Source: Polytrichum commune
Taxonomy: Eukaryota; Streptophyta; Polytrichopsida; Polytrichales; Polytrichaceae
Assembly (NCBI GenBank): GCA_950295325.1
Contig: OX485803.1
Span: 5,022,001 to 5,086,000 of the forward strand
Reading direction: 5' to 3'
DNA length: 64,000 nt
Every line of letters starts with the position of its first letter. The stretch's first letter is position 1. A program made the position numbers and the translations under genes. The notes beneath the pieces are model-generated. The model was not told the DNA's origin. It saw only the letters and a list, made by a program, of their open reading frames with translations, and made no database searches. Positions 41,501-63,400 of the stretch are shown one piece after another.

Positions 41501-44500
41501 AATAAATCCAACAGCACCATCCTGTAAGTAGTTGATATAGCCCAAGTTCCTTTAGAAAATTAGAAAACATCCATATAAAGCTCATAAACATAATCCCCAG
41601 CAGCTACCCTCCAAATAGAATTTGGTCATTTTCTTTGTTGAAAAACATGGCACAAAACATCCAAAATGTTTGGTTCTAAATAGGCTCAAAAGGAATCCGG
41701 TACTCGAGAGCTAACATCGACAGCGATTCATGACATATCTGCACCTTTAGGGAGGAGTTGCGCTTAATATAAACCTCTCATGTAACCAGTTTTTATTTTA
41801 AAAAGACCAAGAGAAACTCAACGACCTGAAAGCCATGTCTAATATCCTGTGTGATGGAAATTGTTAAAGAAAGTAACCATTGCTCGTGTGGAGGAGTCCT
41901 TCGATTGTCTGCAGGCACTGGAAGGATGGAGCATGCAATTTCAGGAGCTCCAGCAGATTTTTGAATCTGTCGTAGACACAGACCTGTAAAAACCCAAGGC
42001 CACTGAAATTTGTCCATCACACTTATCTCAGCAGTTTGTCTTTTAACTCAGCACAGAGAGATCCGCACCCCAATCCACATGACAAATGTCTTTCAGTAAC
42101 CAAAGACTAGCTGTGCCACCTGGACAAAGACATCCTAGTGTCTAAAGGTGGCTTAAACCCGAGGTTCAGCCACCTTATGCCAGAGTTGCACTAAGATGGG
42201 TGACCTTCATAGCCCTTATTTCTGGTGCACCCTACCACCTATGGTCCACCCATTCATACTGAGGGCATCCAGGTGAACCGGATATTTTCAACCAACCATA
42301 TGGGAACCCAGGGGCTTGCCCTTGGAGGAGATAGGTGCAGGCTGGCTTGTCCACCACTTCTCTAAATCTTGTGAACTCGAAATTGAGGAATTCATGCCAG
42401 TGGCAATTTGGAGTCATCTATCTTTCTTTCTCCTAGTGCCTTTCTAAGAAACTGGATAAAAATCAGGTCCGATGCATGACCGACCTTTTGTGGACCTACA
42501 AACACTGAAAGACGCAACTACACTTATTATGATATTTAGTGTCACTTACTACTTGGAATTACATAATGCTATATCTATTAGCTATGTATCTCAGATTTTA
42601 CCAACAAATATTAAATTGGTTGTTTGGACATTATCGAACATCAACAACTTTACTTGGTAAAAAGTTACTTCGAATATAGAAAGATATAGCACCATGTATT
42701 TCCAAATAGTAAGTGACACTAAATATCATATTTAGTGTACTTTTCTTCTTGGAGATGATCTCTTGTTCCAGAACACGTCACATCCATGGATGTTGGGCCT
42801 ACTAGGTTACTGGCACCTTCCCACTAATGAGTGCCATATGATTGAAAAAAAGATTATTGCAACAGGCACCTGTGATGCTGTCACACATGATCAGGTTAGG
42901 CTTGATGCCTTCTCCCCATGCAGTTGTGTAAAGTTCAAGAGCCATATTTGCCTCACCCAACCTGCATATCCAATTCCAATTCTGATTGAGTCTTTGCAAC
43001 ATTACCAATGACCAAGAACACATGTAACAACTTTCGACACTCTGTATTTACCTTCACGCGATTCAGGTTATAGGCCATTGGCAAGAACAGGCCCCAGGGT
43101 GGCTTACACCAAGGCCTTAACCCGGATCCCGTGGAAACTCTGATGTTAAGCCACCTAAAGCCGGAATAGGGCTATGATGGGTGACCTTCTTAACTCTTGA
43201 ATTTCCAGAGCACCTACTAATATGGTCCACCCAATCGTAGTGGGAGAATCCGGGTGAACTGGATGTTTTCAACCGACCCTGTGGGGATGTAGGAGCTTTG
43301 CCCATGCGGGAGATGGGTGCAGGCCAGATTGTCCATGCCCATTGAAAGTGTTGACCTTTAAAAGGAGAAAGTAGTCTTCAAGGACTAATTCTCGTAATAC
43401 CCGTTTTGAGATTCATCAAGAGATAGACCAACGCAAAGATGAGGCAACAACATAATTCATGTCTATGGCAACATCAGAGTCACCTATACTTCTCTCGTTT
43501 TCATTGGCAGGAACCTCTGAATATTGTCACCCAAATGCCTGGCCTATACCAATCAAATAAAACTGAAGAACAATGAACTCACCTAGACAGAGATCGACAT
43601 AGATTGAGATGAGCAGAAGAGACTTACTTTTCACAAGCTTTCAGTAAAATGTTGTAAGAAATATCGTTGGGCATCATCCCTCTGTTTCTCAAATCTCTGA
43701 GAACAGTAAGTGCATTGGGAAGCTGCTTTGCTTCACCTGAGAAGAAACAAAGGTTGGTTGCATATATTCTGCATCAGTACAAGAAACTCTGTACCACAGG
43801 CCCTACTGGACGACTTATACCTAAAGCATATAGCAATGCTTTCTACATTTCAACAAACAAGAAAGGCATGTGCTTGGTGGGTTTCAAGAACCTACAAAGA
43901 GCTGTCATAAGTGCATTAAATGTTGAGACAGTAGGCTGCAACCCAGCTGAGCAAATCCCTTTGTACACTTCCAGAGCTTTCTCCCATTCTCCCAGCTGCA
44001 GAACATAGGACAGAAACAATGAAGGAGAATCTTTACTTGTAATTATTAGACAGTCTCCAAACCATCAGAGAAATTTCACACAAACTATGAGAAGCTTAAA
44101 CAGAAAATGTTGCTGGTGACATGTTATTACGAAATTGGTCCAACCATTGTATCGGCCAGTGCCTATCAAAAAAGAGCTTGATGTTGTTGACTCAGTTTTC
44201 TGATAATTCAAAACTTCCTCAATTAGATATTTTCAAAAAAGAATCATTTAAAGCTGTACAAACTATTCGGTGCTTTGGTTACCCACATTGCTGCAGACTC
44301 CCATTAGAGCACTGTATACAATTGCTCCAGGTTTCACTCGAGCTTCCTTCATCTCTTGAAGAATGCTGAAAGCCTTTTCGATTTGCCCAGAATGGCCCGC
44401 GACATCGATCAATGAACTGAAGAAAATCTACACACATAAAATAATACCCATCTTGAGTCCAGTCTCATTCTCCTCGCACCAAAATAATCACTCCAGATCT

Positions 44501-47500
44501 GATTCTAGTGTTCCCAATTTCAAATCATTGGCAAAAAAAGAGTTAACCCTAAATTGATACCTCATCTGGTTTCACACCATCTTTTTTGAGGTCCTCCAAG
44601 ATGGTAAGAGCGCATTCTAAATCGCCCTTTTGACTGCATGCATGCACAGCAGCAGTATAGCACTCAGGAGATCCTATAATGCTGCTCGCACGCATGTCCC
44701 GGTACACTGAAAGGGCTCTGTCGGCCTGCAATAAAAATGATATTGAATCAGAATTAGATGTTTTACACATATAAGAGAACTTGATAGGATCAGCCTATAA
44801 TTACCAAACTATTAAGCGATCCATTGATACTCTGATTTACTGCAGGAATGTCAAGCATGAGTTGAAAATACCTCCCGACCGCGAGCACAAGCAGAAATAA
44901 GCGCGCCATATGTGACATGATCTGGCTTCACAGGGGTTGCTTCTGCTTTCATATCTGCCAACACATCAAAAGCTCTTTGCACAGCTCCAGCACGACCGCA
45001 TGCATGTATAAGTGTGTTGAATATCACTCGATCAGGCTTCACATTCTGAACCAGGAGCACAAGGAACACAAGAGCAAGTAAGTTGGGAAAGTCCTAGTCA
45101 CAAATCCGAAATGACTATATATTCTATATCATCTGTATGCTTTTACCTTACGTACAGGTCGCTTTCTCAAATAATAAAGCAAAACTTGACACATGTCCGA
45201 ATGTTGATAAATTTGGAGACTGCTGTTCAAGAAACAAAGGAAATTTGATCTGCATACTTTTAGCTTTTTGTGGTCTATGGAACTCCACAATTAGTCATTT
45301 TTGCAAAGAATGATCCAGTAAACTTTAGAAAATTACACTTACCTTTGATATCATGATACCATAGGCTCCAAAAGCTTTAGGTAATTCTCCAGCTCGAGCA
45401 CACCCATCTATCATGGCTCCAAAAGTATGGGCGTTCGCCTCGATTCCTGCCATCTCCATCTCATGGAATATCTGTTGAGAAAACATGCCTTATTTTTTGA
45501 GACATTGGATTCTCCACAGGAGAGTAACTCTGAGAAGTCAATGTCCACACCCTGAATTCTATGCAAACCTTTTGATGGAGTTCAACAACGGTGTTCAAAT
45601 GCTGCAATCTGCAGACTGAATTGCAATTCCATAGCAGTGATATGAAGCGTCAAGAATTTAAGAAGGGAAAGTCTTCTCTCTACAAGCAATTTTCAAAGGC
45701 TATAAGTTTGTCTTAACCATACCTGGAAGACGAGGTCCACTTTCCCAGCTTTAGCACATGCACAAATAAGTGTGGTATAGAACATGCAATCTGCCCTGAG
45801 ACTCACGCTCTCCAGCATAGCAAGCACCCGCAATGCCCCTGACAAGTTGTTATCAAGCCGATTGCGAGCCATGAGATGATGAATGTAGGAGACGATAGAG
45901 CTATCCTTTAATTCAATGGGACTTGTCATCGAGTGTTGGTCCCCTATGAATCTTTATGGGCTGTTTTGCATACAATGTCATTAATTTCTTTCCAATTGTG
46001 GTGCATGCTTGGAGGTACTGTTAAAATATGAATGAACAGCAACCTATTTCAGTTCATTGACTCATTTTAGCACCTCTTGGCATGCCAAAATAATTTTGAC
46101 CCTCAATTATCCAATATAAAAAAATTAGTCCAAACCTTCACAGTACCTCCAAGCATGCGACCATAACTTACTGAACATGGAAGGTGTTGTATGCAAAACA
46201 ACCAACTCCTGACGAGACTCCCCTTCCAATTAAAGGATAACGATAATAAGTTGTGAAAGAGCAGTGAACCCAAACTACCTACAGCAGACTTTGCTTAGTT
46301 TCTGGTCCAATCGGCAGCCTCAGCAGAGTGCTCACCATCAATATCTTGAGCATGACAGCAAACTGAGAGTAGCATAGTGTAATTCCTCAAAGTTGACTCG
46401 CTCCGTAGGAGTTTGAGGAATGTGAAAGCTTCTTTTACAGCTCTTTTTCGTTTACAAGCTTCGTAGAACCTGAAGTGATTCACCTGCGAGTCCAACAATC
46501 CTGGGGATCTCAGCAGCTCAGTCACATCCTCAAGACAATGATCGTCTAATATTGATTAAAAATCTGATTTAACCCAGTCCATGAAGAATACTGTACAAGA
46601 AGATAATATGTGGGAGATGGCTGTTACCTTCATCAAACTCAATTTTCCTGCTTTGTCCACTTCTGTCAACAATACTAGACAGTCTTGGATTCTGCCAAGT
46701 CAACAGTACTCACTTTAACACTCATTCGACACACAAGTAAATATTATACATAAACACATTCCTCGCCATTATAACCTCCAACACCACAGAAAACTACTCA
46801 CGACCATATATGACTCTTTTTATGGTTCTTTACCTTGAAAGAGACAGTGAAATAGATAGATGGTAAGATATAGGTACTAGTGACTGTTTCAGCATTAGTC
46901 AGGTTGAATGCATAAAACAGTACTCAATTTTCTGAAACCTGACTGCCAAATGATACAATCGCACTGATTGATATGTCAATGCTCACCTTAAAATACATCC
47001 GACCAACATGAGGATGTCAGAAAAACATGCTGTTCATGGGATTTCACTTCAACGTGAGGAGAAACAGCCTGACAAGAACCAATGGATTGGAGAGAATGGA
47101 AACCATGAGAAGTAATTACCTGCCCGCTCTCAACATTCTCTCGTACACGTCTCTATAATATTGTGGACTTTCGTCTGGCTTCAGGGGAAGCACGTCACTA
47201 ATTGTGGTGGGAAAACGCTTGGCAGCCTTTCTCTTGTGTGCCACTTCACCCTTGTCTGCTACCCATTTCTTCTTATCATTCGAGCTGAGCTTCTTGACAA
47301 CAGCTTCTTCTTTGCCAACTTTAAGAGGGCTACTTACACTATCTATATTGCCTTGCCTCGAGTACATTTCCTCCGCAATTTGCCTATCCCTATCAGTAGT
47401 CTCTGCCCTTTCTGACTCAGGTATGTGGACCACTTCTGCTTCCGCTTCCCTCAATGTGGCTGCACCATTCACTTCTCCGTAGATGCGTCCATTGGCAGGA

Positions 47501-50500
47501 GGAATCGATTCATCTGAACTCTCTCCTCCATTGGCAGAAGTATTTGGAAGTTCCAGGTTTTTAGAGGCCTCTTCAACATAAGCCCTAAGAGCACCATTTG
47601 TTAACATAGATTGAGAGCTATTTTCTACTGGTTGTTGTTCATTTTCCAACATTCCAGACTCCCGTAGTCTTTCATGAGGCTTTGTATTAACATTGACAAC
47701 AAAGTTGTTGGTGATGTTTTCTTTTGGCCCACTTTCTTGAAGAAGGGTGCCATTAACCCCAGAGGCCTGGAAATCTGCCACAGTTAAGGTGGATGTCGGT
47801 GCGCTACTCCTAAGTACAATATTCTCCATCCACTCGGCTTCTAAGTCTGCCGCTCCGGACGTCGTAGTGGTGCAGGAAGCTATCCTGTGCACCAGATTCT
47901 CAGCTTCCAAAGTTGTGTGCTCCCCTCCTGATTCATGTCCTGTAGTTTTAAGTTGGCTGCCATTATTTCCTACTTTATCACTGCCAGTAGAAGTTCGGGT
48001 TTGAAGAACCGCATCCGTCACAAGCCCTGCGAGCTGGACACCATCAAACCCCGAACATGTTAATAAATGCAAAGGAAAATAAACTGTTGATTTCTTATCA
48101 GCAGAGACAGAGTGATCAGGAAAAATAATTCACTGGGTAACTTGAAAACTAACCCCATCCCCAATGCTACACAAAATGCTTATAGCCTTCTCCCATTTAT
48201 CAAGACTTTATCAAGAACAAATTTCACCGAGTGTGTAATCTCCATGATGCTTATACTACACCACTTAAGTATGCTATGAAGATTGCCTTGTGCATTAGCT
48301 GCAACATTTGCAGATACTTAACTGCCATGATTTGACAATATTGGCAACATAATGAAAGGCCGACCACCCTTGAACCAACTGGCTTGCATGCCTAGTTCGG
48401 ACTGCTGATAACATGCAAGCACTTGGTCATTTGGAATCTATAGTTCCCTTCATCAGGTTCAGGTGTGTTCAGTTTGAGAAAGATTTATAGATTCCTGATA
48501 GACTGGACAACATCCACAAAGTTCCCTACAATATAGTACCTGTGCAAAAAGGCGTATGGCAGAGACTGCAACCCTTTGTGCGAAGTGGAGCTCCTGGTTC
48601 TTATCCTGCTTCCCCTCCTTGAATTCACTGCATAACAGAGAGCTAAGCTTTAGATTGTTGTTATCTACCACTCTTTCGATCAACTTGAGCTCCAAGACAG
48701 GTAGGTATGTAGGTATTCGAACATGAAAAATCAGAGGCCACCCACCTGTTTAGTGACATGAGTGCTAAAGGGACGACAACCAAAATTGCTGATGGAATCA
48801 ATAAATCCTGCAAAAGCCACAACAATCCGCTGCATCAAGACGGAACTTATGAACCACTTTCAACTGTTAATGAATTACTTGGCCACAGTCTGTGGGCAAG
48901 GATCCACAGCCATGTTCTTCCAATCAGTTTCAGGCTGAAGCCAAATGACCACTACTCCAAACCTAAATCTCTACACTAATAAACTAATGGATATGCTTCC
49001 GTGTAATCTGCCAAAAGATGCAGCCCTTCGCCATCGAGTTCCCAAATGCCAAGGACCAAAACATTAACAGCTACTGAAAACCTGAACACAAGCTGAAAAA
49101 CCATACAAAGATTCTATTCTTCACTACAAGATGGTTATTCATCAAAGAGATACTGGACGTGGCCAGCAAACTTATGATGTCTTTCGACATTGCAATACAA
49201 TCACTTTCGTTGAGATTTGAGAAATTAAAGAGCCCACGTGAGTCGCCTGTGGAGAGCTCTGAGTAGAATGGATTGGAGAAAGTAGCCATTCGAATGGTGT
49301 ATGTGAAAACCAATCATCGCACAGACTGATGTTCACTCCAATTATTATTATTACTGTTGTTGTTGTTGTTGTTGTTGGAACCAGTGCTAAGTGAAAAGGC
49401 CCTGATTTCCAACCGCCAAGCCTCCTACTAAAAACTTCAAAGCAGCGATGATGTTTAAAAACATTAAAAAGCTGACCCTCCAAGGCAAGAACCTTTCGTG
49501 TTTCTAGTCCACTGTTGGCTGCAGCCTTGCAGTGACAAGGAACCACTGGAGCTCACAGGGAGGAGATTATTATGATCAAATTGGTGATTCAGCCAGCCAG
49601 CCAGCCAGCCAGGCAAAATTGACCGCCATGAAGCATTGTTCTCATTTCTCCAGGAATACGACTTTAAGGTAGTGCACCGAACGGAACCCGCCAACTAACT
49701 TGATGTGGATGGACTTTCCACAATCTTCAATCATTCGGAAAAGTATGAAAACTACTTGACTTGCGATAGAGGTCCTACGATGCGATTGTCTCTTAAAAAG
49801 GTGGATGAAAAGCCCAGGTTCCGACAACCACCCTCCCGCTTGGATCCATGTCCACCCACATAACATTATCATCATTATTAAGCTCCATAAGAGTGCTCCT
49901 CCTCCGGCACTGTGATGCAAGCATCATAATCCATGTAAGGGACTACTGTGCAATTTCATCGGACCTTACTCTGCGTGCTATCGTCCGTCTCGAGATAGCC
50001 TTCTCATAGGTGGATAACACCCCAATTCTTGGAGATTGGTGGCTTGAGTCTAATTTCTACATATCCCAAAGGGAACGAGCTCACAAGGTTTAATAATAAT
50101 GTCAAAATCAAAGAGGCACACCTTTGTGGATGAGAAGCCCACATTCCGACAACAACCCTCTCGGGTCCATGTCCACCCACATAAGAGAGCTCTCCGGGAC
50201 TAGGATTCAAATGCACTTTGATGCGAGCATCAAAATCCATGCAAGGGACTATTGTGCAGTTTCATCGAGCCGTAATCTGCGTACTATGAAGTCTTTCCGT
50301 CCGTCTTAAGATGGCCTTCTCATAGGTGGATAGAACCCCGATTCTTGTAGATTGATTACTTGAGTCTAGATCTCCTAACCGGAACTCGGAACTCACAAGG
50401 CTAACTCTTACAATGTTATGCGCTTTGGTGATCCTCTCCTCCTCTCCTCTCAATCCACCACAATTATCCTCTCAAACACGAAGCTCCCTCCCATTGCCTC

Positions 50501-51422
50501 CTCACTCCGCTAAGGTATGCGGGCCTTACTCGGTAACTGTTTTTCCTTCATCAGACAACTACAGTTCAGTTTAGGTGTGGATCTAAGAACGGTCACCAAA
50601 AAGACATAATGTATTAAAAGGAGATTGGACCAAAACTACGTGCTCAAAACTTGTTAAACCATTTTAGGCTCAATAATCATTAACAACAATAATTGAGAGT
50701 CGGGCCTATGTGCCATTTGATGAGCTCGAAAATCTCTACTTTGATGACGAACGAACGCGTTATTTCATGTGGGCTCCAAGAATTATGAAGAAAATCGCTA
50801 CGGACACGGTTTTAAATTACCAATCACCTCGCACCGATTACGTGTTGTTTCTTTCGCAACCTACGAGGAGAAGCGGTTGCAGAGCTAAAAGTGTCCAAGC
50901 GTACAAGCGAAATTCATCACCATCACCATCACTAATGTCACCTCAATTCATATTCACTTCACATGCCCGTCCACATGTGCGTGTCCACATGTGTCAATGC
51001 ATAATTTGCTTGCCACTTACAGGCAGGAAGACGAACTGCCCCACGAACAGCACCGCCCCCGAGCTCAGAGGCTCCACCACCGCACAAGTGGTCCGCGCAG
51101 CGCAATTCACAACCGCCATCTGCCCCGCGAATGTGGAGCAAGGCCCCCTGCTGACGCTCAAGCCATCCACCTCGTTGTTCCCCACAGACCGCAGGCCCGC
51201 GAAGCAAGCCGCATTCACATTCCTAACATTCGCATTCGCGTAACTCCCGCTCCCATTCCCACTCCCACTCCCACTCCCACCCCCACTCCTATTCCCACTC
51301 CTGTTCCTATTCGTCACCTTCCTGCTGCTGTTGCTCACCGTATGCGCATTGTGCTGATGCAAGCTGGGAAGACCCCCGGCCGCCACCGCCGCAACCCGCG
51401 CAGGCGCAGCACATGCGGCCAT
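38564..51422 (-). CDS. MRL1: MRL1-like chloroplast PPR protein, 20 exons, about 1,237 residues
   Basis: MRL1 is a plastid PPR protein that protects the 5' end of rbcL mRNA (known in Arabidopsis and Chlamydomonas). Coding exons, in transcript order: 51422-51021, 48807-48746, 48627-48540, 48033-47120, 46691-46628, 46483-46336, 45838-45723, 45471-45343, 45045-44872, 44725-44561, 44427-44287, 43995-43892, 43768-43628, 42961-42870, 41983-41878, 41357-41126, 40400-40305, 40039-39991, 39516-39420, 38957-38564. They sum to 3,714 nt in one frame. Residues 1-134 look like a transit peptide plus a Ser/Gly-rich linker; about 185-480 are low-complexity; 480-900 hold roughly ten PPR motifs (for example NVKPDRVIFNTLIHACGRAG); the rest is the MRL1 C-terminal domain (VDGFGEYDPRA-like block, ALLRRL, NWLQPK, QQRAIRMG). 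The protein is somewhat longer than I recall for Arabidopsis. The exon 12/13 join is unsure. Several introns hold SINEs and MITEs. Confidence 0.92.
42147..42431 (+). mobile_element. 5S rRNA-derived SINE, copy 2 (MRL1 intron 14, internally deleted)
   Basis: Starts GGTGGCTTAAACCCGAGG, keeps the box C string GATGGGTGACC at 42,195-42,205, and shares the body block TCCACCCA...GATATTTTCAACCAACC with copies 1 and 4. It lacks about 120 bp in the 5S front part and the 3' body. CCTAGTG occurs on both flanks (42,134 and 42,432), consistent with target-site duplication. It ends in CTTTCTTTCT. Confidence 0.7.
42521..42737. mobile_element. TA-flanked MITE with palindromic ends (217 bp), MRL1 intron 14
   Basis: Flanked by TA on both sides. 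The inverted ends run about 55 bp and begin CACTAAATATGATATTTAG (right end, read inward), which is itself a palindrome, then TGTCACTTACTA-TTGGAA. TA duplication fits Tc1/mariner (Stowaway-like), but the end sequence is not the Stowaway consensus. No coding content. Confidence 0.7.
43097..43501 (+). mobile_element. 5S rRNA-derived SINE, copy 1 (MRL1 intron 13, antisense to the gene)
   Basis: The first about 95 bp follow plant 5S rRNA from its 5' end: CCGGATCCC-GTGGAAACTC in the front part, GATGTTAAGCC over box A, and GATGGGTGACC at 43,176-43,186 over box C of the internal pol III promoter. The body of about 300 bp is shared with three other copies and ends in a pyrimidine-rich tail. CATTGGCAAGAAC occurs shortly before the element and CATTGGCAGGAAC right after it, a probable target-site duplication. 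A Cassandra-type LTR (which also carries 5S) is the alternative, but the 5S part starts at the element's end and no TG...CA ends are seen. Confidence 0.75.
43628..43892 (-). other. MRL1: Ambiguous exon 12/13 splice junction of MRL1
   Basis: Exon 12 ends at TGTAG followed by GTTCTT. The best-looking acceptor for exon 13 (CTTCTCAG at 43737) would give a frame mismatch of one base and a stop. The next AG upstream (GATGCAG, exon start 43768) restores the frame but inserts about 11 residues (RIYATNLCFFS) that the family does not need. Either this acceptor is used, or one base is wrong in the assembly, or this allele is impaired. All other 18 junctions are clean. Confidence 0.55.
45963..46199. mobile_element. 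Foldback MITE in MRL1 intron 6
   Basis: Ends GTTTTGCATACAA and TTGTATGCAAAAC are perfect inverted repeats. A second paired block lies just inside (TGCTTGGAGGTACTG near 46,007 and CAGTACCTCCAAGCA near 46,141), so the arms reach about 60 bp. No coding capacity. Flanks show no obvious TA or TTA duplication, so the superfamily is not assigned. Confidence 0.6.
48746..48807 (-). CDS. MRL1: MRL1 exon 2: short hydrophobic, possibly membrane-spanning segment
   Basis: This 62-nt exon encodes DLLIPSAILVVVPLALMSLN plus a split codon. Together with the end of exon 1 (VLFVGQFVFLP) it makes more than 25 mainly hydrophobic residues ahead of the charged exon 3 (FKEGKQDKNQE). Only one reading frame stays open through the splice. 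The segment could be a membrane anchor or the thylakoid-like tail of the transit region; the sequence alone cannot decide. Confidence 0.7.
49597..49613. repeat. (AGCC)n microsatellite in MRL1 intron 1
   Basis: Four to five AGCC units. A (TTG)n run of about eight units lies nearby at 49,352-49,377. Confidence 0.8.
49790..50380. repeat. Two-unit direct repeat (about 325-bp period) in MRL1 intron 1
   Basis: Units at about 49,797-50,060 and 50,118-50,380 share GTGGATGA(A/G)AAGCCCA, TCCATGTCCACCCACATAA, AAGGGACTA(C/T)TGTGCA and CCTTCTCATAGGTGGATA in the same order and orientation. No coding frame is conserved. It is a segmental duplication or two adjacent copies of one dispersed element. Confidence 0.6.
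51021..51422 (-). CDS. MRL1: MRL1 exon 1: start codon, transit peptide and Ser/Gly/Asn-rich linker
   Basis: ATG at 51422 is chosen because it sits in GGGGAGATGGCC, a good plant start context, and opens an Ala/Ser/Arg-rich, acid-poor N-terminus (MAACAAPARVAAVAAGG) as expected of a chloroplast transit peptide. An in-frame ATG 17 codons upstream gives a Trp/Pro/Arg start that looks less like one. A hexanucleotide-like repeat (CCCACT on the plus strand, 51,248-51,300) encodes alternating Ser/Gly/Asn. The exon ends at a strong GTAAGT donor and joins the hydrophobic exon 2 in phase 0. Upstream, 51,527-51,560 reads as a GA-rich leader on the coding strand. Confidence 0.75.
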
Positions 51423-51429
51423 CTCCCCA

Positions 51430-51900
51430 ACCCCACAACCCAATCCCCAAACCGGTCGTCGGGGACACCACAATTCCCCCTACCAATTTGCTTCCCCAAT
51501 GCAGGGGCCGCAATTGAATCAACCAATCTCTCCCTCTCCCTCCCTCCCTCTCCTTCCCTCTAATTCCCGAGAGTGTGTGTGTTGGGTGTTGTGCGTTGTG
51601 CGTTGTGTGTGTTTGTGTGTTTTCCGTTTTGGGATTCGGTGCGAGTTATGGGTTGGGATTGTGCGGCGATGGAGAGGTCGACATGATGGGAGGGGATTGG
51701 GGATGGGGAGCTCGGTGGGTGCAAGCATACAGCAGCGGTAGAAATGGGGTCCTGCGAAGGCTTGTGTGAAGCTCCTAAACCCCCTTTCAACCTTATCCAC
51801 CCCATTCCACCCCTTCCGCCCTCCCGGGAACGCCCTGGGAACGCTGGGGAGCTTCTGGGGAGCGGCGCTCGCCGGATTGGGAACTCACGCTCCGGATGTG
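51430..51900 (-). promoter_or_regulatory. Probable MRL1 promoter and leader
   Basis: On the minus strand, 51,560-51,527 is purine-rich (GGGAGGGAGAGGGAGAGAT), a common 5' leader feature. Further up, a CACAC/ACACA-rich stretch (51,570-51,625) and a CpG-rich block (51,830-51,900) lie between the gene and the tandem repeat. No clear TATA box was found. Confidence 0.4.
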
Positions 51901-52715: not shown

Positions 52716-52830
52716 TGATTCCACCTAGTGGCATCTACATTTCCACTAGAATCTAGTGAACGAGCGACCTACATGAAAACTAACCCTTAATGTCACCAAT
52801 TTTATTTGTCTTGCTCAAATGTTTAAGCTA

Positions 52831-53046: not shown

Positions 53047-53049
53047 TAA

Positions 53050-53330: not shown

Positions 53331-53689
53331 ACACTTGTAGGTAAGAAATTAAAGTACATTTAAAGAACATTGAGTTAGTTGGGTTGACATATGGAACTTA
53401 AGGTATGCGGTCCTTAAAGCAACACCCTTATGGGTTTTGGTGGAATTAGATTAATTACTATTTTTAAATCAAGATAATTATCTTAATTTACCAAATAGTT
53501 TAGCAACATGCCTATCAAAAAGTGTTTGAAAAGAATAATAATAATTGTGACTCCTATAAATCATCCAAGTGCACTGTAGCATTGTGTTTTATGGTGTCAC
53601 ATAGGAGGGTCACTAATGTTGGATTGTTGGATGGAAAACCACCCTCAACATCAACCTTATAGCATAAAAGAATTTTTTTATTGAATATT

Positions 53690-54035
53690 GGTGTTGTTCA
53701 CCTTTTGTCTCGGGGGGTTCACTCCCTCTTATTTTTGCATACACGTGCGTTCGGGACCTATTTATTGGGGGGGGGGGTATTTACCTCGCATAAAATATTA
53801 TAAGGTGATGGTATTTTACATGTAAAAAGCCTAAAAATATTATATGTGATGGTATTTTACATGTAAAAAGCCTAAAAATATTATATGTGATGGTATTTTA
53901 CATGTAAACATGTTTCATTATTTTAAAATCCCTTATTTTACATGTACATTTTTTACAAAATTTATCTACAATGAATATATTGGACCCTATTTTTTATCGC
54001 ACGTTGTTCTACGATTTTCACCAGTGAACCCCCCG
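53690..54035. repeat. Dispersed repeat, inverted relative to 4,650-5,560
   Basis: The block from ACCTATTTATTGG through TTACCTCGCATAA to ACAACGTTGTTCTACGATTTTC-like DNA is the reverse complement of pieces at 4,675-4,860 (AATCGTAGAAACAACGTGCG, TATATTCATTGTAG) and 5,480-5,560 (AATAGGTCC, GTGTATGCATCAA, GTGACCTCCC). Two ends of one larger element are likely. Confidence 0.5.
53795..53915. repeat. 46-bp tandem repeat, about 2.6 units
   Basis: GTGATGGTATTTTACATGTA and AAAAGCCTAAAAATATTATA alternate. A single-unit relative in reverse orientation is at 4,740-4,860, where TTACATTTAAAATATCATCA matches, along with the flanking GTGCGATAAAAAA and TATATTCATTGTAG strings. Confidence 0.65.
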
Positions 54036-55488
54036 AGCCTTTTGTGCGACACTCCTTACATCTCCTCAATATGCAGCTAGATCCTAGATTAGCTACTGTG
54101 GTTATGCAAAGTTGGTGCTCTTCTTAAACCATCTTTACATCCATTGTACACGGCCACTACGATTGGCCAAAGTGGTGCTATTTTGTACTTTGCATATGAT
54201 TAGTGGCTTTTATTTTTGGCTAACTTAATGCACCACCCCACTCATTTGTGGACACCTCAAGGATGAACTACAGGTTTTGCTTTTGAGTTGGTGGTACTTT
54301 AAACATGCACACATACCTCAGTGTGTAAGTTGGTAGAGGACCCGAGGTGTACACTCTACATTGGAGTGCCTACCTAAATGGGCCCATACAAGGGTATTAT
54401 TGGATAGGCCCCCTTACACATAGGAGGGATATTGTTGAAGGTGAGGTTTATAGGTATGTTTTGGGTTATTATGTGACATTTTAATTTGTCGACAAACTAT
54501 CTTCAGCCCATCATCTAACAAGAAATGGAAATTTAAAGCCAATGTTGTGTTGCATTGATAAGTGAAGGGTGTGTAGTCATGATTGGAGAAGGAAGTAATA
54601 ATACCCTCCTCAAGAATACTTCATGGTTTGATTTCAATTGCTACTTACTTCATCCTTGCTACGAATATTGGACCACCCTTGAGCAATATCCCATAAGTAT
54701 TTGGAGAGAGAAACTTTTGGATGTGCCATATCATTGGAGAAATAACTACATTTGGTCAAAACAAATGCAAGTGAATAACACTTTCCGTTCCCCCCCCCCC
54801 CCCCCCACAAATCTTTCCTTCCTTCATCGTCTTAAACATTCCTTAGGCATTCCATTGTCCTCGTAATCATTGTATTTAAGTTATCGATAGTAACTTAAAA
54901 TCTAGTATTATGAGATTGTATTCAAGGAAAAACAAAAGCATGTAAGAAGCAATGAAATAACCAAGGAGAAGGAAAAAACATGCAACTAATACTTAACACA
55001 TGAAATACTATATTTGAAACATTGATTGTCCAATGAGTACCTAGTGTCTCCCAACCCCCCAGCTAGATTATAATTTTGGACCGATTCAATTGTCTACATT
55101 TCAACAAATTGGTTTGAAATTTGATATGCATTCATAAGTTTCTATAGACGATATTATAATATTATAAGCATATTCAAATGGAGGTTCAATGTGGTATTGC
55201 ACATGCTTGCACTTCTACCATTCGTTAGTAACACACCAAGAATGATAGGGTGAAGCAACATGAATGGGCTAAAAAAAACCCCTCTGCTTTCTCCTTCAAG
55301 TTGTGTGATTTGAGCACAATTGATAAATGCAAAAGAAAGTTGGTGATTGGAATCTCTATCAATTTAGGCCCCCTTCAAAAGCACTTTTACACAAACTCCC
55401 AAGAGAAAATTCAAGCAATTTCGTTGGTCATGTGTGCTCCCAAGGACTTCTCAATAGGGGCAAGGCATGAGAGGCCATTCTCTACTTA

Positions 55489-56078
55489 GGGCCACTTCAC
55501 ACACAAGGCTGAAGGCCCTTAACCATGGCGATGTAACAGCTCTCATTGGTCGAAAAGGCGGAGACCGTCCAAGTTCACTTCACACTAGGAGGTGAAGGCC
55601 TAAAGGCCCAAAGAAAAGTTCATGGATGAAAAGTCTACATGGAGTCCTACATGGCTGGTTGTGGATAAGGGTGCATGGTCTACCGGAATTTGCGTCAGAC
55701 CCACCTCCAAGAGGTGGGCTTGACCCAAATTCCAGGGGACCATGACTTTTTAATTATTTTTTCCAACAGGACAGATTTCAGGACAGACTGCATGGCAGAT
55801 TCCAAAACAGATTCCAGGACAGACAAACACTACCAAGTAATTATCTTAAATTGATAAACTTGGAGAAATATTATATTAAACCAAATCCTCCCCTCTTTTT
55901 CCGCCAACAAAATATGCAATGGTCCCACAACATGGTTCATTCTCACTTCACACTGTGCTTGAGGACCCAAGACTACATAAAATGGCTTTCCCAACACCCA
56001 TGATACGGACTTTGGTTGAGAGTCAAGGGTCCTCACCATTACAAGGTCACGACTCTTGGCTCATGTGTGAAGTGGCCC
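55489..56078. mobile_element. TTA-flanked MITE, 590 bp
   Basis: Ends GGGCCACTTCACACACAAGG and GGCTCATGTGTGAAGTGGCCC with TTA on both sides (55486-55488 and 56079-56081). The interior has the family blocks GTCCAAGTTCACTTCACAC and CTACATGGAGTCCTACATGG, plus a short local repeat of ACAGATTCCAGGACAGA (55,770-55,825). Confidence 0.8.
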
Positions 56079-56357
56079 TTACTTACATGACATTTTTAGT
56101 ATGACCATCAGTCTCTGGAGAACAAGATGTGCTATGCTTCAATAAATTCCCTTCCAACCTAAGGTAGATGAGAAGAAGAAGAACTCCAGTCCCTCTCAGG
56201 GGCCGGAGTGAATAAAGTGTCTGTTCGTAGGACATCCGTGGCCAAACCCCAAGGCATTGGCGTTGGATGTAATACTACTTCACCCGTTAAGGGAGTAGAC
56301 ACTATTTTAGTAACTGGTGATGTTACCAGTAAACCAAAAGGCGGGGTGTGCAGTAAT

Positions 56358-57250
56358 TTAGGTGGGATTTTGTAAACCGGTGATGGATTGTCTGTTTTCT
56401 ATCCGTCGTTTATGGATCAATATGGTGTGGGCGTATTGTATGGCGATAATATTTATTTGTTTGAATGTACTTCTTATTTGTGATGTGGGAAGTTTAAGCT
56501 TCGTGGCTAGTTCATTCATCGAGGGGATGTGAGTGGTAGCTCTGGCACCTGATGCTAATACAATAAGTGGGGCTACGTTCCAACCGCGTGCAATTATATC
56601 GTTGATGAGTGGTTGATATTTTGTTATTTTCCTGGCCGTTGTTTCAGTAGAGAATCGATCATTACAGTATGTGAATTCAATGAATTGTATAGTAGTTACC
56701 GGTGTAGGTGCGTCTGGTGGAGGGGAGTTGTATGGGTGGCCTAAGATGCATAGTATATCTGGTTTGAGCCTAGCATTGCAATGGCAGCGCGGGGTGTGAC
56801 ATGTGCATGGTAGTAACCATGTTGGTACAGTATTTTCGGGGGGTAAGTCATTGTATATGCCTGCGTTCATAAGTATGTAATGTCTTGTTACGTGGTTGGA
56901 GACTAAAAGTTTGCGTATTTCCCAAACCGCTTTATTATGTCTATTGGTTATGAGCGCGTGGATGTGTTGTTGTTTGCATTTTAGGAGTACATGTAGCCAA
57001 GTGTCTGCTTCTAACGAATTACAAATAGGACATGTGTGGGATGGGTAGGCAGTGCTTCCAAAGAAGAGTTGTTTCCGAGCATGCCCCATGTATTGTCCGG
57101 TGCGGAATTTGATTAAGCATGTTTTTTGTTTGTCTGTGATAATTGGGTTGTTCCAAAAGTCATTGGTAAGGTAGATGAGACTAATGTGGACACCTCTAGC
57201 TCTGGGATCATTCAGCCAATGGATCGAGCATTAAAAGCTTGAGCATGTTA
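56358..57250 (-). mobile_element. LINE, 5'-truncated copy: C-terminal end of the reverse transcriptase ORF
   Basis: An open frame from about 57,250 to the stop at 56,358 reads through TDKQKTCLIKFRTGQYMGHA and HTCPICNSLEADTWLHVLLK, then C-x-Q-Q-H, giving the Cys-Cys-His-Cys zinc-knuckle of LINE proteins (zf-RVT). RHNKAVWEIRKLL follows, then a domain of about 150 residues. Polymerase motifs are absent because the copy starts downstream of them. The frame is intact over about 290 codons, which suggests recent insertion. No gene is near on this strand. Confidence 0.75.
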
Positions 57251-58170
57251 GCAATTGCAAATCAGGACTAAAGACTTTGAAATCGCTGAAATTGAAGTTG
57301 AGGGAGGTGTCGATCTAGGCTCTGGATCCAAAGATTCTCTACTTCCCAATGTGATGTTATATGAGGAAACTTTTTTATCATTCAATGTTACGTAAGTGGA
57401 CATCATCAACAGATTCTACATGGGTCATTTGCCAATGAAAACCAAGTTGAATGCCAAGTTAAATGCTAAATCACCATGTATTACTCACCCACCTAATTTA
57501 AAGCGACCATACCACTGATTAAGAGCCAAAAATAGGTGTCCGATTAAAGAAGCTAACCAAATTACCCTCATTTACCTTATTCAAAGAGTTGATAATGCAC
57601 TAAACATGATAATAAATGTATATTAAACTTGGATACTACAGGTTTGGCAATCTTTAATAACAATGACTGAATAGTGGGTACTAGGACACAGAAGGAAACC
57701 CATACCTGTATGAAACACAGCAAGCCATTACAACATTTGGAGCACTAAGCACCGGAGTCTGAATCTGTTTGACATCGATTGACACACCCTCTAGAGATCC
57801 ACGTACACCTTCTGTGAAACTTTAGCTACAGATGAGCTATTTACATTATATTAATTTTATGTATTGATATTCTTTATTATATTCACAATATATGTCGTGA
57901 AACCAGTTATCAAATTGATGGGGCAGGTGTAGCCCTTGTAACTCAATATTAATGCTAAGCCAAAGCATATATTATTAAAAGAAAAAAAAACAAAGTCTCA
58001 CCAGTGGCATCAAGCTAATCATGCCAACAAAAAAGGCACAATCAAGCACAGCTGATATTCCCAGATTGAAAGTGACCAAAATTTATTCAGTTTTCAATAT
58101 TTCATCTCCATATGGACAGCAACCAATTGTTGTATTCCTAACAAATGAATCCAGAACTCGTCACTTAGGC
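57251..58170. other. No gene seen
   Basis: Lies between the LINE fragment and the COX7a stop; the right part is probably the COX7a 3' UTR. No repeat or coding signal recognised. Confidence 0.4.
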
Positions 58171-58664
58171 TCATTCCTTCATTCCAGTTCCTGTGGCCAG
58201 ATGGTAAACTCCTCGGCCCTACACATAGAGATGGCAACACAAAGAAAAGTTACGTCAACATAAACCTCTGGATATACATCAACACAACCAAAGTGAATTC
58301 TCAATCTAGGGAGCAAGCACAATCAGTTAGAGGGAGAAGGGATAGTGAATCAAACAGCATAAGTTTGCAACCTTCCTGATGTAACCATGAACAAATGCGC
58401 AGTAAAGATGGACAATACAGGAAAAGACTCAGGCTGATGATTTCATCAGGTGCAAGGATATCATTGTAAATAGACAAGACCTTAAGCACATTATGAGTTA
58501 AGAATGTGTACCACAAGTGTAAAGCAGGCAGCAAGCAAAACTCCGGGAATGACAACAGATGTTACTTTGTCACGGGGACCCTTCAAGTGGGTCAACTTAT
58601 GAACAGCTTGTAGCTGCTTCTGCATGTCGAAAACCCTGTCAGGGGCTCCAAAATCTTGAGCCAT
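58171..58664 (-). CDS. COX7A: Cytochrome c oxidase subunit 7a-like protein, 66 residues, two coding exons
   Basis: A small single-span subunit of mitochondrial complex IV in the inner membrane. Coding exons are 58664-58512 and 58218-58171. The first carries the plant family block VHKLTHLKGPRDKVTSVVIP followed by a hydrophobic segment (GVLLAACFTLV). The second supplies GRGVYHLATGTGMKE and the stop, where Arabidopsis homologues have GRGIYNMSHGIGKKE as I recall them. Length matches the plant family (about 68). The ATG at 58664 is the first in frame after a probable leader splice acceptor (GGACAG at 58,688). The true 5' leader exon appears to lie at 60,418-60,520, so the gene has a leader intron of about 1.7 kb containing a 5S-derived SINE. 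Confidence 0.88.
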
Positions 58665-58939
58665 TTGAAAATCTTGGAAGTGAACTGCTGTCCAAGCCAA
58701 ACAACCGATCAATGCAACGCTAACAAAGCCCTTCTTATCAATGTACTATAAAGGAGACTTCAAAATATACTGCAGGTTGTCAAGGCTGTTCGTGATAAAA
58801 GAGCAACCAGGTCCTAATGCTGAACTCTGCATCGGAAAGTATGTACAGAATGGGCTAAGAAGAGAAGAGATGAATCCTATACTGCCACCTGCGTGAATTA
58901 TGGTGTTGCTTCATCTTTGTGTCAGTCTAGCTTTATATG

Positions 58940-59232
58940 CCATCCCAAATTGGGCATCAAAAGAATTAGAGGGCCCTGAAAGACTACTTACAACCTATCT
59001 CCCCCCAATACCTTGAATGGGCGCGGAAGAGCCGGCCTGTACTATCTTCCCAGAGAGCAAGCCCCTGGGCTGAAAATGATACCCCACTATGGTTGGGTGG
59101 GCCATAGTGATCGAGGGCAATTGAATATCAAGTGTTACAAGGATTGTCAATTGAGCACTATTACAGCCTTAAGACGGCTTAACCTCGAAGTTCCCAAGGG
59201 ATCAAGTTAAGGGGTTGGGTTTAAGCCACCCT
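58940..59232 (-). mobile_element. 5S rRNA-derived SINE, copy 3 (COX7a leader intron)
   Basis: On the minus strand it starts GGGTGGCTTAAACCC, followed by TTGATCCC-TTGGGAACTTC and GAGGTTAAGCC, the same 5S head as the other copies. The box C part is replaced by unrelated sequence, so the internal promoter is probably dead. The body is recognisable through GGGGCTTGC, GCCCATTCAAGG and GGGCCCTCTAATTCT. The 3' end is set only approximately. Confidence 0.65.
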
Positions 59233-60417
59233 CGGAAGGCACTAACAACTACGCTAGACACCAGAATAGCCTATATTGATTGGTCACCAGTATAAACATG
59301 TTCTCATTCACTTCTAACAGAGCCAGGAAAGTACACATGTAGTCTGGAAAAGTGCATACCTACACAGCATTCTGGATGGAATCCACCTATTTCCTAATTA
59401 CAAGAAAAGATTTTCAAGGTAATAAGATTCCGAACAATCCTAGAAGGCTACTTCAAATCCTTCACACAATATCTGGTAGATTTCGATGAATTCCACCTCA
59501 TTGCCTCTTTAATTCAGGTTATTCTGGTCCACATTCCATAAATTCTTTGAAAGATTCGAATTGTTGGAACCAGAGAATGAGGTCGGATACACTGTGCATG
59601 CATGCCTCTTAATTACACAGAAAGTGGTTACCAATGTGTTCAGATTCCAGATATTCTTCCACTGATAGCCGAATGTAGAGGAAAAGTAGCGTACAAGCGC
59701 AGTAGCAAATTCAGAATGTGAACCATCCTCCTACACTGAGAAAGATCTGCCGACTTGGGCATATTTATGCCTAGATTCAATTTGCACATCATCTTTTATG
59801 AGGTGTCAACAAATCAAATGATGACACTTCAGGACAGGAAATAATTATTTTATGCCTAATCTGACCCGCAAGTAGGGTCATTGACAAATTTCCCAGGGGA
59901 ACTATGTGCACAGCCAATTTCAAACTAAACGCAGCAATTGAGCCTGATATTCTAGAAACCCTTCACAACGCTAAAAACCAACCAGGTCTCAAAAATCCTC
60001 CGAGCTCGTAAGCAAATGCCAAACAGCGATCTGAATTTTCCACTTGCTTCAAGAAAGACAAACTCGATCTGGAAATGATCACTTTTCGTAAACACATACA
60101 CAATCCGGTGAAAACAAAGCAAAACAAACCGACAAAAGAACTGAGGTCCGAGCTCCAAAGGCAGCGCGGGAGAGGGGCAGCAAGCCAGAGATGCAAATCC
60201 TAGATCATTAAGAAAATACGTAGATCAGACAAAGAAAAATGTTCGCAAGTAGACTGAGAAAGGTGACCAAGAACTTCCAACCTCGAAAGAGAACTCCGCA
60301 GGCTCCCTTATCTCTCTCAGCGACTGATATAATTTGGTGCGCAGGCTCTAAAAAATCCAAAAGAAATTTCAGAAAGACGATGGAAAACCGAACGAGAAGA
60401 GAATAGAGTAGGCGTAC

Positions 60418-60640
60418 CAGGGAGCGCTGGTGGTGCAAGAAGAGCAAGCGGCGATTGCGATGGCGATGGGAAGAGGTCAGCTTGAAACCCTACCTTCTTG
60501 CATCGTCCGCTTCAGAGGAGAGAGAGCATAATGGATGAATAATATGGGGATGGATGAACTATTACGGATGAAGGAATGAGCTGATAGTTAGGGAGGGCTA
60601 TGTAGACTACATGAGTGCTGTGAATAACTTCGTTGTTAAG
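60418..60640 (-). promoter_or_regulatory. Probable leader exon and promoter of the COX7a gene
   Basis: On the minus strand, 60,520-60,418 reads CTCTCTCTCCTCTGAAG, then AGGTAGGGTTTC, a common plant leader motif, then TCCCTG before GTACGC, a plausible donor. This fits a non-coding first exon spliced to 58,687. Upstream sequence to 60,640 is the likely core promoter and ends at a MITE. Confidence 0.45.
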
Positions 60641-60643
60641 TTA

Positions 60644-61020
60644 GGGTCAGTTCACATGGAGTCCCAAGTCCCAACATGAAGGCAAAGTCCCAACTTTTGA
60701 GCCTCAAGAATCCTTCAAATATAGTTAATTATCATCAAAGTTGGATCTTGATTATTGCATGCAAAAATACTTGCGGGATTCGTGTTGAGATTTGGGTTTA
60801 ACTTCATTTTTTTGTTCAACCCAACTCTCAACACAAGTTCCAAGCCTCACTTCCGAAAAATGTTACAAGCCATATAGGATCATGTCATACTTGGGACTTA
60901 GGACTTGGGACCGTGTGAAGTGCTTAAGTCCCAACTTCCATGCTCTGAACGGCTGAGATTGCACGGATTGACCTCCTGTGACTTGGGACTTGTGACTTGG
61001 GACCCCGCGTGAAGCGGCCC
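60644..61020. mobile_element. TTA-flanked MITE, AAGTCCCAA family, 377 bp, between COX7a and the next gene
   Basis: Ends GGGTCAGTTCACATGGAGTC and GACCCCGCGTGAAGCGGCCC, TTA at 60641-60643 and 61021-61023. Sub-terminal repeats of AAGTCCCAA/TTGGGACTT mark the family. It fills most of the space between two divergently arranged genes, so it may lie in a shared promoter region. Confidence 0.75.
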
Positions 61021-61023
61021 TTA

Positions 61024-61362
61024 GGGTGAAGTAACTTTTGCAGAGAGAGAAGCGAGAACTATTCCCCATAGCCATAAGGTTAGCCTTCCTTCGCAAACCC
61101 CCGTGCTCCTCTTCCTCCTACTGCGATTGCCAATGCAATGCGGGCCATGGCGGTTCTCCCATACAACTTCCCAGTAGTTTCAATCGCCACAGAGGTTTAG
61201 TTTAGCAAGCTTCAAGCGGTGTCTGGGCCATGTGAGGAGCAAAGGGGGAGAAGGGCTTTTATTCATTTTGTGTCAAATTTTTAAATCAATTGTCTACCTC
61301 ATGATGATGCAATTTGTTCAAGGTTTATAGAGAGCCAGGGAGGGACTTCATCAGTATTCAAA
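61024..61362 (+). promoter_or_regulatory. Probable promoter and leader of the coiled-coil gene
   Basis: Starts right after the 60.6 kb MITE. Contains GCAGAGAGAGAAGCGAGAAC and a pyrimidine tract CTCCTCTTCCTCCTAC before the ATG at 61,363. Divergent to the COX7a promoter across the MITE. No TATA box assigned. Confidence 0.3.
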
Positions 61363-61515
61363 ATGCAGCAGTCGGTAGAAATGGATTTGATCGAGAAGGA
61401 GAAGGCGGAGAAGGCTGCCTTGCGGAGAAGAAGGCAACAGGGCGTGGCAGCTGGGACATCGAGGTTTGCCGAATTGGAGCAAGCGGTGCAGGAGATTCGG
61501 ATCAACACGTTACAG
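61363..61515 (+). CDS. First coding exon of an unidentified basic coiled-coil protein
   Basis: The exon gives 51 residues: MQQSVEMDLIEKEKAEKAAL, an arginine run, then RFAELEQAVQEIRINTLQ, and stops at a clean CAG/GTTGGT donor. Charged residues with spaced hydrophobics suggest a coiled coil. I do not recognise the family. The next plausible exon is at 61,991-62,045, but its frame does not fit phase 0 in a way that yields a long protein. Downstream pieces at 62.16, 62.49 and 63.4 kb may belong to the same gene. Confidence 0.45.
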
Positions 61516-61610
61516 GTTGGTATATGATTGCTTCTCTTCAGGTGTTTTGTGATGCTCCCATTGTTTTTGGAGCGGTCTGCCGGTCGATTGAGCTGCCACG
61601 GAGCTTTTCG

Positions 61611-61990
61611 CAGGGAAGGAATTGCTTGCTGTTGCGGTTTAGAGAAGGGACGGGATGCTGGATTTTTGGTTTTTTTTTCTGTCTACCTTGTTTGTGTTGG
61701 TTTTGTTTCACAATGTGTCTGTCTGTCTTGTGGATGTTGTGTCGACGGGACTCTCACATCTTTGGTCATGGCTCATCATCAACTGAAGTTCTTTGGCAGG
61801 GAAGAAATTACTTCTTGGTGGGGTTAGGGGAGGTAGTACTGGATGTTTGGTGTTTGGTGTTTGGTGTATGTCTTTGTCTACCTTTTTTGTGATGGTTTTG
61901 TCTCAGTGTGTGTTTGTTTATGTCTCTCTCTCTTGTGGATGTTGTATGGGTGGGGCTCTTACATCTTTGGTCATTTGTCATCATCAACAG
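61611..61990 (+). repeat. Two-unit tandem duplication (about 185-bp period) in an intron
   Basis: Units at 61,611-61,795 and 61,796-61,990 both run from GCAGGGAAG(G/A)AATT through TTGTGGATGTTGT and CACATCTTTGGTCAT (TACATC in unit 2) to CATCATCAAC. Only unit 2 ends in a usable acceptor (CATCAACAG), so duplication may have moved or copied the splice site. Confidence 0.6.
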
Positions 61991-62161
61991 GTACTGAAGA
62001 CGCCCTACTACCGAAATTGCAAGTCTGCACGCAACATTCGCCGAGGTATGTTTTTTGAGAAAGAACCAAGTGAGGCCGTTAGGGCTACAGAAGGACCAGG
62101 ACACTGCATTCACTTGTGCTTCATCTCTTACTGTTTTTCCTCTGCCTAACTGACTGCCCAG

Positions 62162-62372
62162 CTTGAAGAGGCTTATGTGTAGTTTAAAATCGAGTCAAAC
62201 GCTCGAGGAAACTTATTCGGTGGCCATGGCCGAGCAGTGGGTGGCTGCGAGCCGTGTGGACCCAACGGTTGGGTCTATATTATCCAACACAATTAGTATT
62301 GGGGAGAGATTATGCACATCGTTGAATAACTTTGTATCTAATCAGTTGCACAATACGGCATTTTCTGAATGA
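62162..62372 (+). pseudogene. Coding-like exon, copy A of a tandem pair
   Basis: After an acceptor-like CCCAG it reads LEEAYV and a stop; shifted by one base it continues open as SSQTLEETYSVAMAEQWVAA and later ERLCTSLNNFV, ending at 62,372. Copy B 325 bp downstream keeps the same late residues (VAATQIDP, NRLCTSLKDFV, then a stop at the same place). A frame shared by both copies suggests an ancestral coding exon now broken, or an exon used in two frames. Function unknown. Confidence 0.45.
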
Positions 62373-62486
62373 ATGAGGTGGATGTGTTTGAATGTCTTGT
62401 TCACCCTAACTTTGGGTAGAGGGCATTAAAGTCTCTTCCTCATGGAAATTACACCTAGGATGTCAAGCATCATACTTGCTGCTCAG

Positions 62487-62690
62487 CTTGAAGAGGCCTA
62501 TGTGTAGCATCGTAATTGAAGCAATGTATTTCATAATGGCCATTGGGTGGACCTAGTGGAGCAATCAGTGGCTGCAACCCAGATCGACCCAGCAGCCTAA
62601 TTCAATGCAATTTCGCACCGGAACAGGTTGTGCACATCATTGAAGGACTTTGTACAAAGTCTGCTGGACAGTATGATATTTTCTGATTAA
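62487..62690 (+). pseudogene. Coding-like exon, copy B of the tandem pair, decayed
   Basis: Begins CTTGAAGAGGCCTATGTGTAG like copy A (the in-frame stop after LEEAYV is conserved) and matches it to TTTTCTGA. In the longer frame it has at least one extra internal stop that copy A lacks. The flanking 3' sequence (GTGTTTGAATG, TCTCTTCC, GGATGTCAAG) is duplicated too, so the repeat unit is about 325 bp. Confidence 0.5.
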
Positions 62691-62938
62691 GGTGAATGTG
62701 TTTGAATGCCTGGGTCCATCCTAAGAAACGTTGGGTGAAGAGTACCATAATCTCTTCCCAATGGGAATCACACTAGGATGTCAAGAATCAGACAGAATGT
62801 GTCAAAAACTGATGTTCTGGTCAAGAAAGGGCCAAGTTAAGAAGTAGCTTTTGCAGTCATGAATATGACTGCCTAGGTTGCTACTTTAATGGTACTGGGT
62901 GATGTTTTGACCTAATGAGCAATTGTTATCTGACCAGA

Positions 62939-63345
62939 GGGTTGCTTAAACTCAAAGCCTTAATCTGGATCTCATGGGAACTCCAAGGTTAAGCCACCCT
63001 AAGGCTGGAACAACACTTGGATGGGTGACCTTCCTCACACTCGATTTCCAGTGCACCCTACCATCTGTGGTCCATGCAATCATGGTGGGGGTATTTGGGA
63101 GAGCCAGATATTTTCAACCAACCATCTGGGAACCTCGGGACTAGACCTTGGGGGATATAAGTGGAGGTCGACTTGTCTAAGACTGTTCAAGGTGTTCACC
63201 TTTTAAAAGAGGCAGTAGTCTTTGGGGGCCCTCTAATTCTCATGCATGTTTCCAGATTATATCTAAACTTAGACCAACTCAAAGATGAAGCAACACTATA
63301 ATTCACGTCGGTGGCAACATCGGAGTCATCTCTTCTTTTCTTCTC
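62939..63345 (+). mobile_element. 5S rRNA-derived SINE, copy 4
   Basis: Nearly the same length as copy 1 and collinear with it. The 5S head has CTGGATCTC-ATGGGAACTC, AAGGTTAAGCC and GGATGGGTGACC (63,019-63,030). The body keeps TCAACCAACC, TTTTAAAAGAGGCAGTAGTC and GGCAACATCGGAGTCATC, then the tail CTTCTTTTCTTCTC. ATCTGACCAGA before and ATCTGCCCAAA after look like a slightly decayed target-site duplication. It lies between exons of the 61.3-63.7 kb gene. Confidence 0.75.
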
Positions 63346-63400
63346 ATCTGCCCAAACATGAGTGCTTATGTTGTCCTTGAGCCTTTGAAATGCAGTAGGC

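Follow-up and report, generated by a model that had tools for sequence, protein, structure and literature searches.

The genome of the moss Polytrichum commune contains an interspersed family of short elements, each about 400 bp long, which is very probably a 5S rRNA-derived (SINE3-type) SINE; this reading includes an RNA polymerase III start, copying driven by a LINE, and an origin by template jumping of a LINE enzyme. It appears to be a SINE3-type element in plants, previously unreported there. Here, the window refers to the whole stretch of DNA that was analysed, 64,000 nucleotides in length (contig C1, 5,022,001–5,086,000), and the genome refers to the 407.8-Mb assembly (64 contigs, seven of them of 42–78 Mb) that was searched with it.

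Read from 5' to 3', the element can be sub-divided into a 5S head, a body of about 250–300 bp, a hairpin, the motif GGAGT, and a (TTTC)n tail. The window holds four copies, and all four were found again by the family profile HMM (nhmmer) where an original prediction, made from the sequence alone, had placed them (Table 1). The location of copy 3 was right, but one of its ends lies about 80 bp farther out than had been proposed, at 58,860. The profile HMM was built from 35 genomic loci, including window copies 1 and 4, and when the shuffled and the reversed window were searched with it there was nothing at E<=1. The motif GATGGGTGACC, read here as box C in the internal promoter of 5S genes, is present in copies 1, 2, and 4, as predicted, and has been lost from copy 3; it is also included in the family consensus, where the box C region is kept. 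The tail is indeed pyrimidine-rich, and probable target-site duplications flank the copies, that of copy 3 consisting of 6 bases only. The space between copies 2 and 1 contains a separate feature, a foldback of about 225 bp (42,517–42,741), which is probably a MITE-like inverted repeat and which scored far under the cut-off against the Rfam plant miRNA models.

Table 1. Features of the 5S-headed element and of the candidate partner LINE, with positions in the window.
Feature	Position	Strand	Evidence and remarks
SINE copy 4	62939..63339	+	nhmmer E 2.8e-124, model 1-401 of 402; near full length, best kept in window
SINE copy 1	43097..43492	+	nhmmer E 9.8e-108, model 1-401 of 402; near full length
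SINE copy 3	58860..59231	-	nhmmer E 3e-70, model 1-400 of 402; near full length, most decayed
SINE copy 2	42147..42426	+	nhmmer E 4.2e-57 and 5.8e-05 for two pieces; head and body both internally deleted
Copy 4, 5S-derived head	62939..63034 (end approximate)	+	consensus nt 1-95 against the genome's 5S gene
Copy 4, GATGGGTGACC (presumed box C)	63020..63030	+	read in the sequence; inside the 5S alignment
Copy 1, GATGGGTGACC (presumed box C)	43176..43186	+	read in the sequence
Copy 2, GATGGGTGACC (presumed box C)	42195..42205	+	read in the sequence
Copy 4, 5' target-site duplication	62923..62936	+	weak, 11/14
Copy 4, 3' target-site duplication	63341..63354	+	weak, 11/14
Copy 1, 5' target-site duplication	43076..43088	+	12/13
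Copy 1, 3' target-site duplication	43502..43514	+	12/13
Copy 2, 5' target-site duplication	42134..42143	+	9/10, read from the flanks
Copy 2, 3' target-site duplication	42432..42441	+	9/10, read from the flanks
TTC-tailed LINE-like element, 3' part, candidate SINE mobiliser	56171..57230	-	3' end at 56,171
3' end of the LINE (hairpin, GGAGT, (TTC)n), similar to that of the SINE	56171..56210	-	sequence and tail alignments

The head was assessed against the genome's own 5S gene. The family consensus aligns with this gene with a local score of 83 over 85 columns (SINE nt 14–95, 5S approximately nt 15–97), whereas 1000 shuffles gave 16.4 +/- 2.0 with a maximum of 26, and the reverse complement gave 18. 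Judged by this alignment, the head is derived from 5S rRNA and the likeness is beyond chance. The SINE and the 5S gene have GGCCGGAATAGTACT in common, and the SINE profile, when run over 361 kb of genomic DNA, also picks up 5S genes (E 5.6e-15 to 6.4e-13). The original prediction put the 5S part at the extreme 5' end, and the start of the element does coincide with the 5' end of 5S to within one nucleotide, the upstream flanks diverging at that point; this claim should now be amended in that the head corresponds to a diverged 5S nt 1–97, the first 14 nt or so of which have been rewritten. The Rfam 5S model calls no window copy at its curated cut-off, and finds none in 42,000–43,600 even at E<=10; among the 42 places scored genome-wide with this model, at least six are SINE copies, with 24–35 bits, below the cut-off of 38. 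ARAGORN found no tRNA in the window.

The 5S genes themselves deserve a comment. In this assembly they occur as dispersed single genes, with the 5S core pattern matched at 16 places. According to PMC6739443, every bryophyte investigated up to then has its 5S linked to 35S. Seven of 10 5S loci examined (among L009–L018) have an upstream TATA-like box, AATATAA[ACG]TA, which is absent from L011, L017, and L018. There are also paired 5S-like units in the same direction, about 183 bp apart and scoring 42.8–51.9 bits, on contigs C2 (59,433,593–59,433,888) and C7 (14,288,127–14,288,425); these are perhaps another 5S-derived repeat.

Copies of the element are found on all seven large contigs. A first look across the genome gave 1176 candidates with copy 1 as the query and 2134 with copy 4, and the 40 of each that were scored have (self excluded) 73–76% and 76–79% identity, respectively, to nearly the whole query. 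After three locus repeats were dropped, the aligned set comprised 35 distinct loci, 33 of them outside the window; these are the loci scoring highest to window copies 1 and 4, and hence a selected sample. They have a common 5' start and a common 3' end, beyond which similarity stops, and the limits are the same genome-wide, with the 5' limit at the 5S 5' end, as anticipated. The predicted shared body of about 300 bp holds as well, at about 250–300 bp beyond the head. The consensus is 402 bp long, short and non-coding, and begins with GGGTG and ends with CTTTC.

The mean distance of the aligned copies to the consensus is 12.9%, or 9.8% without CpG-like sites, and 71% of the changes are transitions. 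Without CpG-like sites the divergence is 8.7% in the head, 10.1% in the body, and 10.3% in the tail, a difference that is too small to interpret. Given these distances and the pairwise identity among copies (mean 79%, maximum 86%), the family is old, and the copies examined show no sign of a recent burst.

One way of estimating the copy number is an unbiased sample, and 20 evenly spaced 5-kb stretches contained one copy, which scales to about 4,000 copies in the genome (95% interval 103–22,721). Strict 35-base patterns, allowing three mismatches or fewer, matched genome-wide at 328 (head), 315 (body), and 845 (tail) places, with none in the reversed controls; of the 35 aligned loci, 15, 20, and 27 pass the respective patterns. 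Taken together, these counts and pass rates put the number of well-preserved copies at some 550–1,100, with decayed ones extra. The family is therefore one of hundreds to thousands of interspersed copies. The excess of tail matches was considered as a sign of LINE copies, but it is not decisive, since among the aligned loci, too, more pass the tail pattern than either of the others. Pieces of the element may also stand alone: at L010 (112–250, minus strand), close to a 5S gene, there is a partly doubled, SINE-tail-like sequence with no head or body, which could be a truncated SINE, and L042 has a body match on its own (E 0.013 with the SINE profile).

The insertion signature was examined in 36 near-full-length copies (the 33 loci outside the window and three inside) by comparing two stretches per copy, namely 22 nt of upstream flank together with the first base, and 46 nt starting at the 3' end. 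Of the 36 copies, 21 had a duplication score of 7 or more, 16 had 8 or more, and seven had 10 or more; for mismatched pairs (n=720) the corresponding values are 6.25%, 2.5%, and 0%. The remaining 15 copies are without a duplication scoring 7 or more. Duplications are 7–13 bp long, the best being the exact 13-bp repeats at L024 and L040, and their occurrence at copy ends across the genome is what the original prediction led one to expect. The upstream flanks are unrelated (mean identity of 0.29 over 22 nt), and a second direct copy within 1.5 kb is present at none of the 33 loci outside the window, though L038 does have an inverted partial one. The duplications, the unrelated flanks, and the lack of paired direct copies give these insertions the anatomy of target-primed reverse transcription, which an LTR element would not have.

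Two other readings of the copies were weighed and set aside. LTR elements, Cassandra included, are expected to make 5-bp duplications, and the longer ones seen here speak against the view that the copies are solo LTRs of Cassandra or of some other LTR-based element (TRIM) whose LTRs contain 5S. So do the ends, which as predicted are not TG...CA, the position of the 5S part at the very 5' end, and the absence of LTR pairs at the 33 loci outside the window. Cassandra is, to be sure, the described 5S carrier of plants (PMC10853983), and window copies 2 and 1, direct neighbours separated by about 670 bp, could resemble an LTR pair; however, each of the two is bounded by its own separate duplication. 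For the copies examined, the Cassandra reading is refuted by the ends, the duplication length, and the want of LTR pairs and shared flanks; we regard it as highly improbable, and the prediction that a SINE would fit better was sound. The other reading, ordinary 5S rRNA pseudogenes with flanks that are similar by chance and no mobile family, is barely credible. Dispersed 5S genes and fragments do exist in this genome, but all 35 aligned loci have about 300 bp in common past the 5S part, together with common ends and duplications, and it is this shared body that refutes it.

If the element is a SINE, a LINE must be sought whose enzyme would copy it, and the likely partner, on the evidence of its 3' end, is the TTC-tailed LINE in the same window. 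The 3' end of this LINE was placed by its matches: 37 of 55 non-self matched pieces stop at query positions 576–587, and 30 stop exactly at 580, which is window position 56,171. Its open frame (56,358–57,230) has no Pfam match. The LINE ends in TTATTCACTCCGG-hairpin-GGAGT(TTC)n and the SINE in AATTCACGCCGG-hairpin-GGAGTCATC(TTTC)n, and common to both, in order and spacing, are GAA..CA.ACAC..TATTCAC.CCGG, the hairpin, GGAGT, and a pyrimidine repeat. In a 3'-anchored alignment, 11 LINE tails gave p values of 0.004–0.10 against 4000 genomic decoys given GGAGT and of at most 0.0035 against plain decoys, and a shuffle test of the tail alignment with nine LINE tails gave 0–0.084, values which are not independent tests because the tails are related. 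A profile HMM of seven LINE tails did not find the SINE tail, and in an unanchored comparison with the SINE tail, 167 of 3366 window pieces do no worse than the window's LINE; for these two reasons, the link is to be read as positional and the evidence for it as moderate. The suggestion that the SINE tail might match that of the window's LINE has moderate support from the anchored alignment; a hairpin is present in both tails, and the profile search speaks against the match. The SINE body has no match in the LINE part seen and so does not come from it.

One might argue instead that the 5S-derived SINE is moved by a different LINE (e.g., of the L1 clade) and that the tails have converged on a hairpin and a pyrimidine repeat. 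The negative LINE-tail profile would agree with this, as would the use of TTTC in one repeat and TTC in the other and the limitation of the likeness to about 40 nt, and the comparison covered one LINE family. Convergence would not, however, be expected from the order and spacing of the tail parts shared with the TTC-tailed LINE, nor from the fact that this LINE's tail has already been fused to 5S three times, and we consider a different LINE unlikely. A short repeat just outside the LINE 3' end (56,032–56,093) is a separate observation; it occurs again at 17,348–17,407 and 20,609–20,659 and at L056, L058, and L059.

The fusions in question are 5S/LINE-tail chimeras, found at four loci that represent three independent events, a lower bound since they were seen among 40 scored candidates. 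L017 and L018 (contig C1, 69.78 and 69.76 Mb) consist of a complete 5S to which about 60 nt of LINE tail are attached, and an exact 11-bp repeat lies immediately against either end; they share flanks and therefore descend from one insertion. In L094 (contig C2, 27.05 Mb), exact 12-bp repeats enclose the initial 57 nt of 5S, which a linker of about 20 nt connects to the LINE tail. In L095 (contig C4, 16.82 Mb), which is 5'-truncated, 5S from approximately nt 68 to 113 is joined to the LINE tail. The simplest reading of these junctions would be a switch of the LINE enzyme from its own tail onto 5S RNA, which makes the chimeras a candidate for the expected first step toward the birth of a 5S-headed SINE.

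In the life cycle that we infer for the SINE, RNA polymerase III would start at nucleotide 1 of the element by means of the internal promoter that the head retains from 5S. A single TTTT inside the consensus, at nt 172, might stop this polymerase early. A LINE reverse transcriptase, with the TTC-tailed family as its most likely source, would then engage the 3' end of the SINE RNA and copy it where the target is nicked, and this target-primed reverse transcription would give rise to the duplications. The birth of such a SINE would plausibly be similar: the LINE reverse transcriptase would begin on its own 3' end and then jump to 5S RNA. A more tentative proposal, to which we give slightly less than even odds, is that in this bryophyte lineage one TTC-tailed LINE repeatedly makes 5S-derived SINEs, its enzyme beginning at its own 3' hairpin and jumping in the sense direction to 5S RNA to yield minimal 5S/LINE-tail elements; the family of about 400 bp would then be an older, successful product that acquired a body and amplified, and SINE3, if present early in land plants, could have given Cassandra its promoter.

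Several further observations concern the window or the genome as a whole. A fragment at 23,964–24,342 of the window matches bacterial-type 16S rRNA (Rfam, 100.3 bits) and is presumably organelle DNA in the nucleus. Of nine chromosome-end stretches, five are TTTAGGG/CCCTAAA arrays, three are N, and one is neither. LEAFY is represented by six matching pieces at three loci, two of which were translated (L069 and L071); at the two positions that separate type I from type II, the residues are H and R in one of them and D and C in the other. Type I and type II LEAFY are described together in Polytrichum commune, other non-Bryopsida mosses, and liverworts (PMC6588583), and finding a type I-like and a type II-like gene in one genome is relevant to the LEAFY duplication debate as presented there. 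A count of seven chromosomes agrees with Polytrichaceae, and on these features the host would be a bryophyte, probably a moss outside Bryopsida and less probably a liverwort.

Among known systems, the closest are the 5S-derived SINEs of animals, such as zebrafish SINE3, HaSE3, and PxSE4/5, which as described in PMC3272025 and PMC8010984 have A, IE, and C boxes in a head derived from 5S, an unrelated body, a LINE-like tail, and target-site duplications. The moss element has a similar layout, the likeness of its tail to that of a LINE being moderate, and differs in its bryophyte host and in its pyrimidine (TTTC)n tail. Because its head goes with this genome's own 5S, an origin independent of animal SINE3 is likely. 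The original prediction named animals as the home of 5S-derived SINEs, which is correct, and fungi should be added: SINE3-1_AO and AfuSINE3 also have a 5S-derived 5' region (PMC5063351). AfuSINE3 is described in that source as having five copies and poorly conserved promoter boxes, whereas the moss family has hundreds of copies that pass a strict pattern. In the open-access literature covered by our searches, we recognised animal and fungal families only and no 5S-derived SINE of a plant.

Plants do have tRNA-derived SINEs such as Au and p-SINE, some with T-rich ends and LINE partners that are called unidentified (PMC3747384); the moss element shares their plant host and differs in having a head from 5S and not from tRNA. 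The TTC-tailed LINE bears on the question, raised by that source, of which LINEs recognise pyrimidine-tailed plant SINEs. The mammalian 5S/LINE-1 and U6/LINE-1 chimeras resemble those described here in that a small RNA is fused to a LINE, there with 7–17-bp duplications, and their 5S is typically antisense and truncated (PMC13174262). In the moss, by contrast, the 5S is in the sense orientation, its own 5' end is kept in L017/L018 and L094, and the LINE part is just about 60 nt long. Sense-orientation chimeras with exact duplications make the template-jump model directly testable in a plant genome.

Cassandra, a TRIM, is like the moss element in being a plant retroelement that carries a 5S promoter (PMC10853983), and unlike it in that the moss element is without LTRs, has 5S at its extreme 5' end, and makes longer target duplications. 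According to one proposal, Cassandra originated through the insertion of a SINE3 into an LTR (PMC10886601), and a plant SINE3 would be the missing ingredient for such an origin. If SINE3 was present early in land plants, it could have supplied the 5S promoter of Cassandra.
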